From Candidatus Zixiibacteriota bacterium (GTDB taxonomy: Bacteria; SM23-81), in contig DAOVRJ010000037.1 of NCBI GenBank assembly GCA_030628225.1, positions 1-13,679 of the forward strand: a stretch of 13,679 bases of DNA, read 5' to 3'. Made by a program: the position numbers and the translations under genes. Below the pieces are notes generated by a model, which searched no databases, was not told where the DNA came from, and saw nothing but the letters and a program-made list of their open reading frames with translations. Shown here piece by piece: positions 1,872 to 9,704 of this stretch (positions within the stretch are counted from its first letter, which is position 1; each line of letters begins with the position of its first letter).

Positions 1872-1876
1872 AGATG

Positions 1877-4711
1877 ATGAAGCTGAAAGTGTCATCCGCG
1901 ATCTTGCTGGCGATTTCTCTTTTTGTATTCTTACCGGGTCTGGCAGTGAGTATCGAGAAAATTGATGAGATCGAGCCCAACAACAAGTTGAAAGAAGCTC
2001 AGGCCATCACCATCCCCTGCGTGATCTCTGGATCCTTTTCCGAGAGGGCCGAAAAGGATATCTATGCCTTTACCGTGCCCCGGGAAGGACTTCCCTCTCT
2101 GTACGTCGTCTTGACCAACCGGAACGACCTCAACCCCACGCTGGATATGTTGGATGAGAACGGCAAGGTTCTGACCAAGTCCGATTTTTTTAAAGATGGC
2201 CAGGGAGAATATCTGACCAGCCTGAAGCTGGAGCCCGGCGAGTATTTCCTGCAGGTGGGTCGGCATGGCGCTAAAGAGACCGACGGCCTGCCATATACCT
2301 TGAGCATCGATCAGGTTCCTGAGGTCAGCCCGGAGGATGTGCGAAAAGCGCTGCATAAAGCCCTGGATTATCTCGTTTCCCAGCAGGGGGACGATGGTGG
2401 GTTCCCGGAGGTGAAATTAGGCATCGTCTCGGCTCCGGCCATGGTGATCCAGGCTCTTTTGGGAGCCGAGTGCCTGGAGCGCGACGACTGGGAGACTGTT
2501 TACAAGGCCATCGATTTCGTGAAAACCTATTACAAGGACCCCGCCGATTACAAACAGGATCGCCACGGGCTCAAAAATGCCGGTGGGATATTTGCTCAAA
2601 AGAGCCTCTACGAACACGGCATTGCCCTGACGGCCCTCATCGAGGCTTATGCTTTGGGGGCAGGGGATGATCTGGCGAACATCATCCACGATGGTCTCGA
2701 CTATCTCTTGCGAGCCCAATTGACCAAGGACCGTCCGGCCATCATCAACGGTCCCATTCCGCGGGATTCGAAATATTATGGTGGCTGGCGATACGCGGCT
2801 GATTCCAAGGACGCGGATATCTCCGTGACGGGATGGCAGATCATCGCCCTTACGGCGGCCAAGAGCGCCGGTTTCCAGGTGCCTGCTGATCGTTTTGACG
2901 CGGCGCTCCAGTTCACACGCCGTTGCTACCGGGAGGACAAGGGTGAGTTCGCCTACACGCCGGACGGCGATATAGGAACCGGGCGCTGCGCCATGGGTGC
3001 CCTGTGCATGCAGCTTCTGGGGGCCGGAGACGACCCGGAGGTGCAAAATGCTCTGCGGGTTATCTTGACCCGGGCTCCCGCCTGGGAGGGAGAGCCGCTG
3101 GGCGGCGCGTTTCCTTTTTACTACTGGTACTACGGCACACGGGCGGCGTACCTGGCCGGGGGTGAGACCTGGGATCTGTGGCATCAGACCACCTGTGGCA
3201 TGCTGGTCCGCCATCAGAACGGAAACGGCAGCTGGGAGCTGAATCAGAAAGAATTGAGCAAGCTGGACAAGATATACGCCACCTCTTTGGGGGCATTGAT
3301 CCTGGAGCTTTGCTGTGGAAGCCCGCCCATCTATCTGCGAACGGACAAGGCGCCGGCGCGGAAGGTTCCCCCGCCGCGCAACGAGATAAGCGTCTCCATC
3401 GAAACTCCGGTGGCAAATGCTATGATTCAAGGACCGGTGGAGATCAGGGCGATTCCGGTGGTGCCGGAACGAGTGACGGTAAAGCGGGTGGTTTTTTACC
3501 TGGATGGCGAAGAGTTGGGCGAGCTCACCGAGGGTCCCTGGGTTTGGCAGGCGGACCTGGGACCGGGAGTGAAGATCCACCAGTTCAAGGTGGTCGCCGA
3601 GAACGATCTGGGCAAGCAGGCCGCGGCAGAGGTGGCCACCAGGCAGGGACAGAACCGGATCAAGGTGCGCATCGTGCAGCCGCGCGGGGGGATCGTCCTG
3701 GGCGAAAAGGAGCTTTTCGTCAAAGCATCGGGCCACCCGGATTCACCCCTGCGAGGTCTGACTGTTCAGGTGGACGGCCAACAGATTTACAGTGGGAGCG
3801 AGCCGGAGTACAGAGCTCAATATGATTTTGGGACGGTGGGGGGACAGGAGATCGTGGCCACGGCGGTCAACGCTCTGGGGAGCGAAGCCGTCGATCGCGT
3901 CAAGCTCAAGGAGCAGAAGCCTCTGGAGGTGGATTTTGTGGCCACCGTGACGGATCAGGATAACAACTATATTCTGGATCTGGAAAAAGAGAGCTTCTCT
4001 GTCCTGGAAGACGGTGTCTCGCAGGAGGTCCTCCGCTTCAGCCGGGAGCTGACCCCCGTGTCCATGGCCATGGTGCTGGATGTCAGCGGGAGCATGAAAC
4101 GCCACATGCGGGGCGTTCAGGGAGCAGCCGTCCAGTTCGTCTCTCAGATCCGGCCGGTGGACCGGGTCATGGTGATCGAGTTTTCCGATCGGGCCAAGGT
4201 GATTCAGCCGTTTACCTCTGACGCGAACCGACTCAAACAGGTCATTCAAAAGACAAAAGCTCAGGGAGGCACGGCCCTCTACGATGCCGTGGTGATGGCC
4301 TGTGATCATCTGAAGCGCGAGAAGGGGAGGACAGCCATCATTCTCCTGACCGACGGCAAGGACGAGGACAAGAAGGGCAAAAAGCCTGGCAGTGTGCATA
4401 CTCTCGAGCAAGCCGGTCAGGCGGCCAAGGAGACGGGCGTCACCATTTACTCGCTGGGTTTGGGGAAGGGTGTGGCCAAGGAGGTGTTGCAGGATCTGGC
4501 CAAAAAGAGTGGTGGCCGGGCCTATTTTCCACCCACCGTGGAGGATCTGGCCGAAGTGTATGAGCTTGTCGCCAAAGAGCTGCGCAGCCAGTACAGCATC
4601 GGATACTCATCCACCAATCGGATCAGAGATCGCGCCTGGCGCATGATAGAGGTCAAGGTTCCCGGGACCGAGTACACCGTGCGGGCGAAGGAGGGGTATT
4701 TCGCCAAGTAG
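1877..4711 (+). CDS. Secreted PPC / alpha-alpha toroid / Ig-like / VWFA multidomain protein
   Basis: A protein of about 944 residues. The N-terminus (MKLKVSSAILL..., hydrophobic to about residue 25) is a signal peptide. Residues ~30-147 (EIEPNN start, D-x-Y-x-F core, G-E-Y-F-L-Q-V end) match bacterial pre-peptidase C-terminal (PPC) domains. Residues ~152-487 carry repeated A-L-x-Y-L-x-x-x-Q and G-G-W/G-S-W motifs typical of the alpha/alpha toroid of prenyltransferases and squalene cyclases; I see no DxDD-type cyclase motif, so a structural role is more likely. Two Ig-like beta domains follow (~504-590 and ~596-680). The C-terminus is a VWFA domain of the type found in VWFA-related repeat families, with an intact MIDAS: D-V-S-G-S near 735-739, Thr near 799 (GGTALYD) and Asp near 826 (LLTDGKD). 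It should bind a divalent cation and a protein ligand outside the cytoplasm. It lies 9 bp after the transglutaminase-like gene, so the two probably act together. Domain calls are firm; the ligand is unknown. Confidence 0.88.
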   Translation: MKLKVSSAILLAISLFVFLPGLAVSIEKIDEIEPNNKLKEAQAITIPCVISGSFSERAEKDIYAFTVPREGLPSLYVVLTNRNDLNPTLDMLDENGKVLTKSDFFKDGQGEYLTSLKLEPGEYFLQVGRHGAKETDGLPYTLSIDQVPEVSPEDVRKALHKALDYLVSQQGDDGGFPEVKLGIVSAPAMVIQALLGAECLERDDWETVYKAIDFVKTYYKDPADYKQDRHGLKNAGGIFAQKSLYEHGIALTALIEAYALGAGDDLANIIHDGLDYLLRAQLTKDRPAIINGPIPRDSKYYGGWRYAADSKDADISVTGWQIIALTAAKSAGFQVPADRFDAALQFTRRCYREDKGEFAYTPDGDIGTGRCAMGALCMQLLGAGDDPEVQNALRVILTRAPAWEGEPLGGAFPFYYWYYGTRAAYLAGGETWDLWHQTTCGMLVRHQNGNGSWELNQKELSKLDKIYATSLGALILELCCGSPPIYLRTDKAPARKVPPPRNEISVSIETPVANAMIQGPVEIRAIPVVPERVTVKRVVFYLDGEELGELTEGPWVWQADLGPGVKIHQFKVVAENDLGKQAAAEVATRQGQNRIKVRIVQPRGGIVLGEKELFVKASGHPDSPLRGLTVQVDGQQIYSGSEPEYRAQYDFGTVGGQEIVATAVNALGSEAVDRVKLKEQKPLEVDFVATVTDQDNNYILDLEKESFSVLEDGVSQEVLRFSRELTPVSMAMVLDVSGSMKRHMRGVQGAAVQFVSQIRPVDRVMVIEFSDRAKVIQPFTSDANRLKQVIQKTKAQGGTALYDAVVMACDHLKREKGRTAIILLTDGKDEDKKGKKPGSVHTLEQAGQAAKETGVTIYSLGLGKGVAKEVLQDLAKKSGGRAYFPPTVEDLAEVYELVAKELRSQYSIGYSSTNRIRDRAWRMIEVKVPGTEYTVRAKEGYFAK

Positions 4712-4921
4712 GGTCGTGGAGTACGGGTTGGGGATTCTGATGGTGAGTGGGCCGCGTTTGGGCTCTTTAAACGCAACTTGATCGAGGAATATTGGTGGGG
4801 TTCCGGTAGAACTACGGATGTCCCAATCGTGGCTAACCGTGGAAAGAAGATCGATATGGGGGGAAGTAGAGGGGCAATAGTAATAAGGGAAAAGAAATGC
4901 AGAATGAAAAATGAAAAGTGA
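4712..4921 (+). other. In-frame open extension after the amber stop of the VWA gene
   Basis: After the TAG at 4709-4711 the same frame stays open for 69 codons to TGA at 4919-4921. Its composition is protein-like (for example EWAAFGLFKRNLIEEYWW near 4745-4800) until it enters the heptad repeat near 4894. The VWFA domain already ends normally before TAG, so the extension is not needed for a complete fold. It could be a decayed domain, a readthrough tail, part of a repeated intergenic element, or chance. No start codon with an RBS was seen. Confidence 0.3.
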
Positions 4922-4978
4922 AAAATGCAAAATGTGAAAAAGCAGTTGAGCTTTGCCTTTACGAATCTCGAATCTCGA
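4894..4978. repeat. Heptad-built direct repeat, copy 1
   Basis: An 85-bp block matched almost exactly by 5041-5124 (one 1-bp indel and three substitutions by eye). Internally it is period 7: ATGCAGA, ATGAAAA, ATGAAAA, GTGAAAA, ATGCAAA from 4897, then a linker containing AAAAAGCAGTTGA, then CGAATCT units from 4962. This resembles the short tandem repeated (STRR) heptamers known from cyanobacteria and other bacteria. Confidence 0.85.
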
Positions 4979-5017
4979 AATTCGGGTTTCAAACAATGGC
5001 AATAAAAAACAAAGTCG

Positions 5018-5038
5018 GCAGTAAGCAGTAAGCAGAAA
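5018..5038. repeat. Short heptad repeat GCAGTAA x3
   Basis: Three consecutive 7-mers, GCAGTAA, GCAGTAA and GCAGAAA, lie between the two copies of the larger repeat and keep the same period of 7. Confidence 0.7.
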
Positions 5039-5040
5039 TT

Positions 5041-5124
5041 GAAATGCAGAATGAAAAATGAAAAGTGAAAAATGCAAAATGGAAAAAGCAGTTGAATTTT
5101 GTCTTTACGAATCTCGAATCTCGA
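5041..5124. repeat. Heptad-built direct repeat, copy 2
   Basis: This is the second copy of 4894-4978. The offset is 147 bp, which is a multiple of 7. The CGAATCT heptad run at its right end continues past the duplicated part to about 5149 as CGAATCT, CGAATCT, CGACTCT, CGAATCT, CGCTTTG, CGAATAA, ending just before the serpin stop codon at 5169. Confidence 0.85.
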
Positions 5125-5168
5125 CTCTCGAATCTCGCTTTGCGAATAAAGTTTCTGAAAAAGGGGAA

Positions 5169-6449
5169 TTATCCTCCCTGCGTGGGGTCCACGATCTTTC
5201 CTATAAACAGTATCGTTTGCGAGTAATTCTCTCGGATCATGAACAGGAACGGCCGGTTAGCCTGAAAAAGGGGATCCTGAGGATCTCCGCTTGTGGTTCC
5301 CGCCATGTGAACAGAAGTGACGGCTGCAGCTTCCGTTCCCTCTTCATTCACCTCCACGAAGGTCTTGTGTTTCACCCGGTCGATCCAGATGCGGACATCC
5401 TGATACATTTTGCTGAAGTTCGCCGCCTCTGACGAAAAAGCGATGCCCATTCCCAATGCCGTTAAGGCGTCATTCAAGGTCAGATCATAGTGCAGTTTAA
5501 ATCTTGGAAGGTAGATGTCCACGGAGCGATTCGAGAAATGACTCAGCCAATGTTCAAGGCTGTCCGGTTCAAGTGTGGCAATCAGCGCTTCGAGACCGTT
5601 CTCCCTGTTGGGCAGGAAGATGGTCATGCTGAAGGCCTCATCGCCATAAGATAGATCGACGGCCTGGAAGCGATCATTAACGAAATATTTATGCAGGGCT
5701 TTATGCGCCATCATCTGGCAGGTCGTCTCCGAACCATCGGGCAGAATGAACAAGTCGTCTTGTGTCAAATCTTCGTCAAATTGATACGTCCAGCAGCCCT
5801 TGAAATAGATGGCGTTGATCAGGAACATCACATCATCAGCACTGATGATTTTGATGATCTCCTTGATCTTCCCGTTGGTATTCTCATCGACCCAATCATT
5901 GATAATGGCCGGAGCGTTGGGATCGCTGAAATTCAACTCCGTCACCAGGGCGTTGAAGTATTCATCACATCGATCGAGGAACTCCGTCTCCGGCTGCTGG
6001 AAATCATCCCGGTACCAGATGGAATTGGCGATTTGAAACTGGACCTTGGGATCCAGTTGAGTCAGCAGATCGATGAGCTGCCGATAGGATTCGTTGATCT
6101 CTTCCATGGTCAGGCCGGAGAGCTCCAGGGTCTGTCGCATGGCCTCCTGCGTGGCCCCGTCGGCGCCGTTGAGGGTCATGCCCAGGGCCATGGAGATGCT
6201 TAGGGGGGAGATGAAGATGTTCTTGTCTCCTGCTGTTTCATTGATTTTTTTGAACAGCTTCAGGCCGAACTCGTTGTCCGATTCGATGAGGCTCTTTTCC
6301 GCGGCAGTCAGCTTAAATGGTTGAGTGGGGCCTGAAATGGGGCTGCTTGTGCACTGTAAGGAGAGAGTGCCGATGGAGAATATCAGAAGGAAATACAGCC
6401 CCTTTCTTGCGCAGCTCCTCGCCTTTGGATTCTGAGTTTTCTCAAACAT
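5169..6449 (-). CDS. Serpin-family lipoprotein A (protease inhibitor)
   Basis: A 426-residue serpin with a complete fold. It has N-F/NIFISPLS, the conserved NSIWY, INAIYFKG, the hinge E-E-G-T-E-A-A-A-V-T-S, and F-Q-A-N-R-P-F-L-F-M-I, which fits the PROSITE serpin signature. A small-residue hinge (P15 Gly to P10 Ala) is the mark of inhibitory serpins, which trap a serine or cysteine protease by inserting the cleaved loop into a beta-sheet. Counting from the hinge Glu as P17 puts P1-P1' at Thr-Thr. The loop from P5 to RPF is 18 residues, the longest of the three paralogues. The signal peptide ends L-S-L-Q-C (Cys33), suggesting a lipid anchor, though Gln before Cys is unusual. The start at 6449 is preferred over upstream 6494 because AGGAGGT lies exactly 7 nt before it and the longer form would overlap serpin B. 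It is the last gene of a three-serpin operon, 25 nt after serpin B. Confidence 0.93.
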   Translation of the reverse strand: MFEKTQNPKARSCARKGLYFLLIFSIGTLSLQCTSSPISGPTQPFKLTAAEKSLIESDNEFGLKLFKKINETAGDKNIFISPLSISMALGMTLNGADGATQEAMRQTLELSGLTMEEINESYRQLIDLLTQLDPKVQFQIANSIWYRDDFQQPETEFLDRCDEYFNALVTELNFSDPNAPAIINDWVDENTNGKIKEIIKIISADDVMFLINAIYFKGCWTYQFDEDLTQDDLFILPDGSETTCQMMAHKALHKYFVNDRFQAVDLSYGDEAFSMTIFLPNRENGLEALIATLEPDSLEHWLSHFSNRSVDIYLPRFKLHYDLTLNDALTALGMGIAFSSEAANFSKMYQDVRIWIDRVKHKTFVEVNEEGTEAAAVTSVHMAGTTSGDPQDPLFQANRPFLFMIRENYSQTILFIGKIVDPTQGG

Positions 6450-6456
6450 TACGTTT

Positions 6457-6463
6457 ACCTCCT
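6457..6463 (-). promoter_or_regulatory. RBS fixing the serpin A start
   Basis: AGGAGGT (plus-strand ACCTCCT) ends 7 nt before the ATG at 6447-6449. This supports an internal start rather than the longest reading frame. Confidence 0.85.
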
Positions 6464-6474
6464 GGATGTAACCT

Positions 6475-7737
6475 CTATCCAGCCGTGGGATCAACGATCT
6501 TGCCGATGAACAGGATTGTTCCAGATTCGTTCTCCCGGATCATGAACACGAATGGCCGATCGGCTCGAAAGGTTGGAGGGCCACCGGAATCGGTGTACAT
6601 CTCGACTGAGGTGACTGCAGCAGCCTCGGTGCCCTCCTCGTTCACCTCAACGAACGTTTTATGCTTCACCTTACTGATCCACACGTGTCTGGTGCTATAC
6701 ATATTTCGAAAATCTGCCCAGTCAGGATCGAAGGCGATGCCCATACCCAACGCCGTTAGGTCATCCTTCAATTCACGGTCATATTCCAGCTTAAATCTGG
6801 GGATGAAAACATTCACCGAATCGCTGGAGAATTGACTCAGCCAATCATTCACATTTTCGGGAGTGAATTGAGCGATGAGAGCGTTGATATCCATATGCTC
6901 CCCAGGAACAAAGAGGGTCATGCTGTAAGCTCCATCCCCATAGAGCAGATCGACGACCTGAAAATCCTCGTTGAACAGAAACCCATGGATCGCCTTTTGC
7001 GACATCAGCTGGCAGGTCGTCGTGGAGCCATCCAGCAGATAGAAAGGTTCGTCCTGCGTCAGGCTCTCGTCGAACTGGTAGGTCCAATTTCCTTTGAAAT
7101 AGATGGCGTTGATCAGGAACATGCAGATTAAGGGATCGATGGGATTGTCGACGATCTCCTCGATCTTGCCGTTGGTCTGTTCGTTGACCCAGGCGTTGAT
7201 GGTCGGGGCAGCATCGGGAGAGCTGAAATCCAGGCCAGTTACCAGAGCGTCGAAGTACTGCTGACAGCGGTTGAGGAAGTCCGCTTCGGGTGTGGGAAAG
7301 CCGGGATGTTTGTACCAGATGGAGTTGGCGATGTCGAACTGGACCTGGGGGTCGAGTTGAATTAAAAGGTCGATTAAGTACCTGTAGGACTCGTTGATCT
7401 CCTCCATGGTCAGCCCGGACAGCTCCAGGGTTTGCTCCATGGCATCCAGGGTGGTCCCGTCGGCGCCATTGAGGGTCATGCCCAGGGCCATGGCCACGCT
7501 CAGCGGGGAGATGAAGATGTTCGAGTCCCCCTGTGCCTCGTTGATGACCTGAAACAGCTTGAGCCCGAATTTGTTGTCCGACTCGATCAGCGTCTTCTCC
7601 GCCTCGCTGATATCGATGGGCTCAGACGTAGGTGGAGAGTTGGCTGGATTTTCGGAGCACTGCCAGGCCAGAGCTGCCAGAAGGAACAGGAAAAAGAGGG
7701 TCTGTGCTCGTTTCAGCATGCTGGTTTTCGCGAACAT
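6475..7737 (-). CDS. Serpin-family lipoprotein B (protease inhibitor, predicted P1 Asp)
   Basis: A 420-residue serpin, closely similar to its two neighbours over the fold (NIFISPLS, NSIWYK, INAIYFKGNW). It has an inhibitory hinge E-E-G-T-E-A-A-A-V-T-S and the serpin signature F-R-A-D-R-P-F-V-F-M-I. The bait loop after the hinge is E-M-Y-T-D-S-G-G-P-P-T; canonical counting places P1-P1' at Asp-Ser, which would suit an Asp-specific (caspase-like) or acidic-specific protease. P1 by counting is only approximate. The N-terminus is a hydrophobic signal ending A-L-A-W-Q-C (Cys27), a probable lipoprotein site with atypical Gln at -1, followed by SENP. The start is ATG 7737 rather than GTG 7746, because AGGAGGT lies 7 nt before the ATG and the GTG overlaps that SD. 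It is the middle gene of the operon, 24 nt after serpin C. Known bacterial serpins of similar type protect cells from host or competitor proteases. Confidence 0.94.
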   Translation of the reverse strand: MFAKTSMLKRAQTLFFLFLLAALAWQCSENPANSPPTSEPIDISEAEKTLIESDNKFGLKLFQVINEAQGDSNIFISPLSVAMALGMTLNGADGTTLDAMEQTLELSGLTMEEINESYRYLIDLLIQLDPQVQFDIANSIWYKHPGFPTPEADFLNRCQQYFDALVTGLDFSSPDAAPTINAWVNEQTNGKIEEIVDNPIDPLICMFLINAIYFKGNWTYQFDESLTQDEPFYLLDGSTTTCQLMSQKAIHGFLFNEDFQVVDLLYGDGAYSMTLFVPGEHMDINALIAQFTPENVNDWLSQFSSDSVNVFIPRFKLEYDRELKDDLTALGMGIAFDPDWADFRNMYSTRHVWISKVKHKTFVEVNEEGTEAAAVTSVEMYTDSGGPPTFRADRPFVFMIRENESGTILFIGKIVDPTAG

Positions 7738-7744
7738 GACGATC

Positions 7745-7751
7745 ACCTCCT
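7745..7751 (-). promoter_or_regulatory. RBS fixing the serpin B start
   Basis: AGGAGGT (plus-strand ACCTCCT) has a 7-nt spacer to ATG 7737. The alternative GTG at 7746 overlaps the SD and is excluded. Confidence 0.85.
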
Positions 7752-7761
7752 CGAGATAATC

Positions 7762-9018
7762 TTATCCAGCCGTGGGGTCTGTGATCTTGCCGATGAACAG
7801 GATCGTCCCGGACTCATTCTCGCGGATCATGAACAGGAACGGCCGGTCTACCAGAAAGTCATCACTTAAGCCCTCAACGAGGTGAACCGAAGTTGCTGCA
7901 GCCGCCTCGGTGCCCTGCTCATTCACCTCTACAAATGTTTTGTGCATCACTTTGCTGATCCAGATGCCTTTATAGGGAAGCATGTTGGAGAAATCAGCGG
8001 AGCCTCCGAAGGCGATGCCCATTCCCAGGGCCGTCAGAACGTCATTTAACATCAATTCATATTCTAAGGTGAACTTCGGCAGAAAGATATTCAACGAGTC
8101 ACCCGAAAACTGACTCAGCCAACAATTTAACTGCTCCGGCTCAAATTCTGCGATCAGCTCGTCGATGTCGGTGCTCCAGCCGGGCAGAAAGATCGTCATG
8201 CTGAAGACACCATCTCCATAGGGCAGGTCGATGGCACGGAAATCGTCATGTTCATAATGCCGGAACAAACATCTTTGAGCCATCATGGGGACCGACGTTT
8301 GTGAACCATCGGGCAAGAAAAACGACGCATCCTGAGTCTGTTCTTCGTCGAACTGATATGTCCAGATGCCCTTAAAGTAAATGGCGTTGATCAAGATCAT
8401 CACGGTCAGCGGATCCAGGGGGTCTTCCACGATATCTTTGATCTTCCCATTGGTGTTTTCCTCCACCCAGCTGTTGATGATAGAGGCAGCCTGGGGGTCC
8501 ATGAAGGATAATCCGGTTACCTGGGCGTTGAAATAATCGATGCAGACATTGAGAAATGAGTCTAACGGATACCTGTCAAGGCGGTACCAAATGGAGTTCG
8601 CTATTTGTAACTGAACCTGGGGGTCGAGCTGCGGCAACAGATCAAGCATATTTCGGTAGATTTCATTCACCTCTTGTATGCTTAAGCCGGCCAGCTCCAG
8701 GGTTTGCGCCATGGCCGCTCGCGTGCCGCCATTGGCCCCATTATAGGTCATCCCCAGGGCCATGGACACGCTCAGGGGGGAGATGAAGATGTTCTTATCC
8801 CCCTCTTGCTGGTTGATCTCTCTGAACAATTTGAGACCGAATTTGTTGGACGACTCTACGACGCTCTCCTTCGACCGAGTCAACTGGTTCGCAGGAACGC
8901 TTCGCCCCCCTAGATCGTCAGAGGTCGCCACCGGATTCTCCGAGCACTGCCAGAGAAAAAGCCCCGCGGATATGACGATAGCAGGGCCCAAGATCAATTT
9001 TAAAATCTTCCCGGTCAA
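7762..9018 (-). CDS. Serpin-family lipoprotein C (protease inhibitor), TTG start
   Basis: A 418-residue serpin and the first gene of the operon. It has NIFISPLS, NSIWYR, INAIYFKGIW, the hinge E-Q-G-T-E-A-A-A-A-T-S and the signature F-L-V-D-R-P-F-L-F-M-I. The hinge is fully inhibitory in type. The loop after it (H-L-V-E-G-L-S-D-D) is the shortest of the three (13 residues to RPF); counting gives P1-P1' Gly-Leu, with Glu at P2. The longest open frame begins at 9075 but has no RBS. GGGAGGT at 9026-9032 sits 7 nt before a TTG at 9018, the same geometry as in the other two serpins, and this start gives a normal lipoprotein signal (T-G-K-I-L-K..., Cys25 in L-F-L-W-Q-C followed by SENP). The anchor would place it in the envelope. 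It diverges from nikR across a 266-bp gap that holds both promoters. Confidence 0.94.
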   Translation of the reverse strand: MTGKILKLILGPAIVISAGLFLWQCSENPVATSDDLGGRSVPANQLTRSKESVVESSNKFGLKLFREINQQEGDKNIFISPLSVSMALGMTYNGANGGTRAAMAQTLELAGLSIQEVNEIYRNMLDLLPQLDPQVQLQIANSIWYRLDRYPLDSFLNVCIDYFNAQVTGLSFMDPQAASIINSWVEENTNGKIKDIVEDPLDPLTVMILINAIYFKGIWTYQFDEEQTQDASFFLPDGSQTSVPMMAQRCLFRHYEHDDFRAIDLPYGDGVFSMTIFLPGWSTDIDELIAEFEPEQLNCWLSQFSGDSLNIFLPKFTLEYELMLNDVLTALGMGIAFGGSADFSNMLPYKGIWISKVMHKTFVEVNEQGTEAAAATSVHLVEGLSDDFLVDRPFLFMIRENESGTILFIGKITDPTAG

Positions 9019-9226: not shown

Positions 9227-9255
9227 TTGACTTCACCCCGAGTGTAGCATAAATT
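9227..9255 (+). promoter_or_regulatory. Promoter of nikR
   Basis: TTGACT (9227-9232), 17-nt spacer, TAAATT (9250-9255), giving a start near 9262 and a leader of about 23 nt. The NikR-like dyad lies across the -10 and start region, a position that would repress. Confidence 0.6.
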
Positions 9256-9270
9256 TGTGGAGTGTAACAC
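9242..9270 (+). promoter_or_regulatory. Putative NikR operator at the nikR promoter (weak form)
   Basis: GTGTAGC-N15-GTAACAC is an imperfect dyad (5 of 7 half-site positions pair). The right half is exact for the GTAACAC half-site known for many NikR proteins; the left half and spacer deviate from the usual N13/N14. The same stretch can also be read as a 10-bp direct repeat, GAGTGTARCA, with a 20-bp period. It overlaps the nikR -10, which suggests autoregulation. Confidence 0.45.
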
Positions 9271-9284
9271 AAACGGGGGACAAC

Positions 9285-9704
9285 ATGGGCGACATGGTCC
9301 GTTTTGGGGTGAGCATGAGCGCCGAGCTGCTGGAGAGTCTCGATGCGCTGTTGGCCAAAATTGGCTACAGCTCCCGGTCAGAGGCCATCCGCGACATGGT
9401 GCGCAGCCGGCTGGTGGAAGAGGAGTGGCGGGAGACGGGTCAGGAGGTTGTGGGCACCGTCACGCTGGTTTACAGCCATGAGGTGCGGGAGCTCACCGAG
9501 ATGCTTACCTCTCTGCAGCATCACTATACCGCAGAGATCGTCTCCACCACCCACATTCACCTGGACGAGCACAACTGCCTGGAAGTACTTATCGTCCGGG
9601 GGAAAAACCAGAGGATCCGGGAGATCGCCGAGAAGCTGATCAGCACCCGGGGGGTAAAGCATGGCAAATTGACCACCACGACTACGGGAAAGGAGCTTGG
9701 CTGA
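9285..9704 (+). CDS. nikR: Nickel-responsive transcriptional regulator NikR
   Basis: A 139-residue protein with both NikR domains. The N-terminal ribbon-helix-helix (residues ~4-48: V-R-F-G-V-S-M, then the helix with S-R-S-E-A-I-R-D) binds DNA. The C-terminal ACT-like domain (~55-135) tetramerises and binds Ni(II). All four high-affinity nickel ligands of E. coli NikR (H76, H87, H89, C95) are present as H79, H90, H92 and C98 in HHYTAEIV and THIHLDEHNC, with identical spacing. The start at 9285 is chosen because the RHH domain begins there and GGGGGA precedes it; the frame is open from 9255, but those extra residues overlap the promoter and operator. It lies upstream of a TonB-dependent receptor with its own NikR-like site, so the two form a nickel regulon. 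No nickel ABC transporter or nickel enzyme is in the window. Confidence 0.95.
   Translation: MGDMVRFGVSMSAELLESLDALLAKIGYSSRSEAIRDMVRSRLVEEEWRETGQEVVGTVTLVYSHEVRELTEMLTSLQHHYTAEIVSTTHIHLDEHNCLEVLIVRGKNQRIREIAEKLISTRGVKHGKLTTTTTGKELG

Follow-up and report, generated by a model that had tools for sequence, protein, structure and literature searches.

An old, probable operon of three tandem serpin genes with position-specific reactive centre loops in a bacterium of the Candidatus Zixiibacteriota

The window analysed here, by which we mean the whole stretch of 13,679 nucleotides (contig DAOVRJ010000037.1 of assembly GCA_030628225.1), carries a tandem row of three full-length serpin genes on the minus strand, between 9018 and 5169, transcribed in the order C, B, A. 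An earlier note on this DNA had described them as an operon of three tandem serpins, and this observation is confirmed: the three serpins are real, and their layout is that of an operon. All three products match the Pfam Serpin profile PF00079 across positions 2-370 of its 370 (cut-off 27), and the gaps between the genes are 24 nt (C to B) and 25 nt (B to A). The features are as follows.

7762..9018, minus strand: serpin C, first gene of the probable operon; PF00079 386.3 bits; TTG start after GGGGAGGTGATTCAA; lipobox-like FLWQ-C.
7846..7920, minus strand: reactive centre loop of serpin C, counted from P17 up to the last residue ahead of RPF; it has 17 residues from P9, with Gly at the canonical P1 and Leu at P1'.
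6475..7737, minus strand: serpin B, second gene; PF00079 367.3 bits; ATG start after AGGAGGTGATCGTC; lipobox-like LAWQ-C.
6559..6639, minus strand: reactive centre loop of serpin B, with 19 residues from P9 and, by the canonical count, Asp at P1 and Ser at P1'.
5169..6449, minus strand: serpin A, third gene; PF00079 384.7 bits; ATG start after AGGAGGTAAACGTA; lipobox-like LSLQ-C.
5256..5345, minus strand: reactive centre loop of serpin A, with 22 residues from P9 and Thr at both P1 (canonical count) and P1', where the family default is Thr-Ser.
5164..5178, minus strand: weak terminator-like hairpin with a T-run, overlapping the stop of A; a possible operon end, from a pattern scan only.

Each gene has its own purine-rich Shine-Dalgarno sequence, AGGAGGT or GGAGGT. 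A pattern scan returned no convincing promoter for the operon, and the terminator-like sites it found were near chance (7 against 4.4 +/- 2.2 expected). A search of the source genome (2.34 Mb, 92% complete) with the PF00079 profile gave A, B and C as its sole serpins. An Rfam search of the window gave no RNA family, and no relatives of these serpins were found in the viral contigs searched, i.e. there is no sign of phage carriage. The bodies of the three proteins are 64-67% identical in pairwise comparison and the loops (P9 to RPF) 32-55%, hence the description of the bodies as conserved, given in the earlier note, holds in relative terms only and is otherwise generous. A, B and C belong to an already known kind of inhibitor, and nothing found here changes what a serpin is or how it works.

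The hinge reads E-E-G-T-E-A-A-A-V-T in A and B and E-Q-G-T-E-A-A-A-A-T in C, so that the G-T-E-A-A-A core claimed for all three is indeed present. The stretches EEGTEAAAV (A, B) and EQGTEAAAA (C) fit the P17-P9 motif of inhibitory serpins, which resembles E-x-G-T-E-A-A-A-A in PMC8233489. Between T-S-V and R-P-F lie HMAGTTSGDPQDPLFQAN in A, EMYTDSGGPPTFRAD in B and HLVEGLSDDFLVD in C, and the lengths first given for them (18, 15 and 13 residues) are exact. Among 129 homologues the loop measured from P9 ranges from 14 to 26 residues; the 17-22 residues of A, B and C are compatible with a P1 about 17 residues after P17. With P1 placed by the canonical count, 17 residues on from P17, it is Thr in A, Asp in B and Gly in C, the same residues as predicted before. 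The canonical P1 is Thr in 73 of the 129 homologues and the P1' is Ser in 85; B and C depart from this default at P1, and A keeps it. The loop of miropin, the nearest characterised relative, is reported to use several bonds and to trap many proteases. A P1 obtained by counting is therefore to be taken with reserve.

Miropin of Tannerella forsythia (5ncs, 5nct, 5ncu, 5ncw) is the best sequence match in the PDB, with an E-value of 3.7e-98. It has the same hinge, and its aligned loop is equal in length to that of A; it differs in being described as one gene of a host-associated pathogen, whereas the genes here form a tandem of three and belong to an environmental lineage that is not in culture. 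The second-best match (E 5.7e-87) is conserpin, a designed consensus serpin (5cdx, 5cdz), whose reactive centre loop is as long as that of C, although conserpin is an artificial protein. An AlphaFold2 model of mature A (mean pLDDT 86.8, pTM 0.87) matches PDB serpins at TM 0.79-0.88; for B and C the serpin fold is assigned by homology only. In the model, residues 339-351 (P15 to P3) form a strand within the sheet, and the superposition on protease-cleaved miropin 5ncw gives 1.0 A rmsd over 329 columns. The modelling of A thus yields an inserted hinge, which inhibition by a serpin requires, with the reservation that AlphaFold may favour this state because of its training set.

In 120 of the 129 homologues, all three window serpins included, a Cys follows an N-terminal hydrophobic stretch. 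This conservation points to lipoproteins, and the location at the cell envelope that the earlier note had supposed is probable. A classical lipobox reads [LVI][ASTVI][GAS]C. We observed that in 28 of the 120 homologues, among them A, B and C, the residue directly before the presumed lipid-anchored Cys is Gln, which lies outside this pattern (not Gly, Ala or Ser). Because the -1 residue is often Gln, lipidation of A, B and C is probable rather than certain. Miropin is reported as exposed on the cell surface in PMC4604654.

What a single window could not reveal comes from a comparison with relatives. The phylum is small, and four of its genomes were compared (G000, the window genome, and G001-G003). 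Zixibacteria SM23_81, which belongs to the same family as the source genome and to another genus, is the only same-family relative among them; the two other genomes have no serpin. SM23_81 (loci L032/L044) carries three tandem serpins on one strand, A', B' and C', in the same order as the C-B-A of the window, and we take the two arrays to be orthologous. Both are divergent from a neighbourhood with an ACT-domain gene (64% identity) and an MBL gene (75%). The genes in between differ: they are nikR and a TonB receptor in the window genome and, judging by translations, rubrerythrin- and Fur-type genes in SM23_81.

In a tree built from the bodies alone, with the loop left out, A pairs with A' (support 97/95) and B with B' (100/100), and all six array serpins form one clade (95/97), therefore the duplication was local, as the earlier note had supposed. 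The pairing of C with C' appears in the best tree, yet it is unsupported (61/20). A recent duplication within the window genome was considered and discarded, a window-only clade being rejected by the AU test (p-AU 2.8e-5). The loops tell a consistent story: measured from P9 they have 22 residues in A and A', 19 in B and B' and 17 in C and C', and an ordered match of this kind would arise at random with a chance of 0.00035, as calculated from the 129 loops. Only 5 of the 129 homologues have a loop of 17 residues, and C and C' share both this length and a Gly at P1; A' has Thr at P1, like A, and B' has Ser. Since the order, the pairing of A with A' and of B with B', and the loop lengths are common to both genera, the set is old and position-specific: the array predates the split of the two genera, and the loop type of each position has been retained in both lineages. 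In our opinion, this conservation of order and loop lengths is the most informative feature of the array. The diversification after duplication that the earlier note had proposed stands insofar as the loops differ and change faster than the bodies, but it is not recent, for the array is older than the genus split and loop length is fixed by position.

We consider it likely that this is an old operon of surface-exposed, lipoprotein-type inhibitory serpins whose position-kept loops make up a fixed set of three baits against secreted proteases. A, B and C, which are related to miropin, most likely inhibit secreted proteases as lipoproteins of the cell surface. An N-terminal signal peptide would direct their export, and a lipid anchor would most likely hold them at the surface. 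There a protease would cut the exposed reactive centre loop, the loop would insert into beta-sheet A, and the protease would be trapped. One ancestral gene would have been duplicated locally before the two genera separated, and each position would then have kept its type of loop: long with a P1 Thr in A, intermediate in B, short with a P1 Gly in C. We infer further that the three loops divide specificity between them, so that the fixed set may be deployed against different or overlapping secreted proteases, the bacterium's own or those of its neighbours.

A different view would be that the three copies simply increase the dose of a single broad, miropin-like inhibitor, and that most of the differences between the exposed loops arose by neutral drift. 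Indeed, the title of Ksiazek 2015 presents miropin as a single loop trapping many proteases through different bonds. Moreover, the loop of the A-B pair is unexceptional, its divergence being matched by 37.5% of body windows of equal size; in the other pairs the loop is among the most diverged 7% (B-C), 4% (A-C) and 0.7% (B-B'). However, the copies had diverged before the genus split, their distinct loop lengths were kept in both genera, and with bodies only about two-thirds identical exact dosage copies have not been maintained. We therefore regard redundancy as unlikely.

Quite unlikely, in our estimate, is that the loops are under ongoing positive selection, in an arms race with the proteases of competitors or hosts which duplication feeds with new variants; this would be the earlier note's proposal in its strongest version. 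It is true that the loop dN exceeds the body dN in the closest pairs of the window, 1.8-fold for A-B, 2.1-fold for A-A' and 4.9-fold for B-B' (and 1.1-fold for A'-B'), that the P1 of B was exchanged between the genera, Ser for Asp or Asp for Ser, and that in close array pairs elsewhere (L081, L109, L078 and one pair of L048) no body window is as diverged as the loop window. On the other hand, body dS is saturated in the window's pairs (1.4 or more), so that loop dN/dS is poorly estimable and allows no test of positive selection; wherever it could be computed it was below 1, and in none of these pairs was it above 1. An acceleration of loops in array paralogues was hinted at by a binned comparison, but when each clade was represented by its closest pair alone, these paralogues did not differ significantly from inter-genome pairs (median loop/body ratio 2.4 against 2.1; p=0.46 for dN and 0.23 for amino acids). 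In several inter-genome pairs the loop is more conserved than the body, as in a pair between two Gemmatimonadota arrays (L080/L085), where one loop is 94% identical and the body 83%; the fixation of loop lengths by position argues in the same direction. Thus the comparison of dN/dS inside and outside the loop, which the earlier note had called for, does find loops that change faster than bodies, while ratios above 1 and an acceleration tied to duplication are not borne out. Even less probable, in our view, is that one or more of the serpins, and C in particular, have lost inhibition and act as substrates or binding proteins: the P1 Gly of C is uncommon (14 of 129) and its loop is among the shortest, yet it keeps the full hinge GTEAAAAT and, by alignment, the loop length of conserpin.

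We return to the reading of a conserved set of three surface inhibitors, and ask which proteases it might meet. Candidate classes of target are encoded in the source genome itself, where matches number 7 for S8 subtilase-type, 17 for C25-type and 2 for Trypsin_2 proteases; the two serpin-less relatives within the phylum have 25 and 13 C25 matches and 3 and 6 of S8. As an observation in its own right, C25 (gingipain-type) peptidases were matched 9 to 25 times in each of the phylum's four genomes and in none of 14 control genomes. Self-protection against the bacterium's own C25 proteases is ruled out as the sole explanation, since the serpin-less relatives have similar or higher numbers of them. 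Our preferred reading is that the serpins would protect against the proteases of neighbours in addition to the cell's own.

Why some bacteria keep serpins at all is called an open question of the field in PMC8233489. Copy number in related genomes, which the earlier note had proposed to look up, is three in SM23_81 and zero in the two other relatives within the phylum. In a sample of 98 genomes, 27 have serpins, 19 of them with one match and eight with two or more. The statement that bacterial serpins usually occur singly is therefore fair as a majority rule, but arrays are no rarity: of the 80 closest loci in GTDB genomes, at least 15 have two to five adjacent serpins on the same strand, a lower bound because contigs are often broken. 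They come from Zixibacteria, KSB1, Fidelibacterota, Bacteroidota, WOR-3, Ignavibacteriota, Gemmatimonadota and Calditrichota. In the tree, the serpins of several arrays group with others of their own genome (L078, L109, L081, L067 and L033), which indicates that arrays arose repeatedly. Those of SM23_73_2, WOR-3, Gemmatimonadota, Fidelibacterota and others are tandem and on the same strand like the one in the window, but they are separate expansions, with copy numbers of 2-5. Zixibacteria SM23_73_2 has five tandem serpins (L048:1349-7865) with very different loops, four of which cluster while one groups elsewhere; a single origin of this five-gene array is mildly rejected (p-AU 0.037).

More than one serpin in one bacterial species is known from siropins 1 and 2 of Eubacterium siraeum, according to the portion of PMC5127057 searched, which holds no statement of a tandem operon. 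The siropins resemble the window's set in being multiple within a species and differ in that their host is a gut Firmicute. In the open-access literature we found no paper linking serpins with Zixibacteria and no description of bacterial serpin arrays; a position-fixed arrangement of this kind is thus undescribed for bacteria in the literature searched. Arrays recur in several phyla, which suggests that environmental communities impose a common selective pressure. It is a tentative idea, for which we would claim no great probability, that environmental bacteria of the FCB group and related ones have repeatedly evolved surface arrays of serpins, with a fixed type of bait loop at each position, as a partitioned antiprotease coat. 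For experiment, a conserved array with position-specific loops offers three related inhibitors made by nature, whose loops can be compared directly for their targets.

The neighbouring parts of the window hold some further features. At 9242-9270 (plus strand), just upstream of nikR (about 9285-9704) and its TonB receptor, lies GTGTAGCATAAATTTGTGGAGTGTAACAC, a pattern expected 0 times by chance, which resembles the NikR operator, GTGTTAC-N-GTAACAC; it is likely concerned with nickel regulation of nikR and the TonB receptor and not tied to the serpins. Between serpin A and a VWA gene, at 4894-5124, lie intergenic direct repeats of A-rich and CGAATCTCGA type, with two copies of about 90 nt that are 146-147 nt apart. 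The VWA gene itself (1874-4711, plus strand) encodes an exported protein of 945 amino acids with a C-terminal VWA and a Big_7 domain; its N-terminal half has no Pfam match and resembles, by eye, alpha/alpha-toroid repeats.
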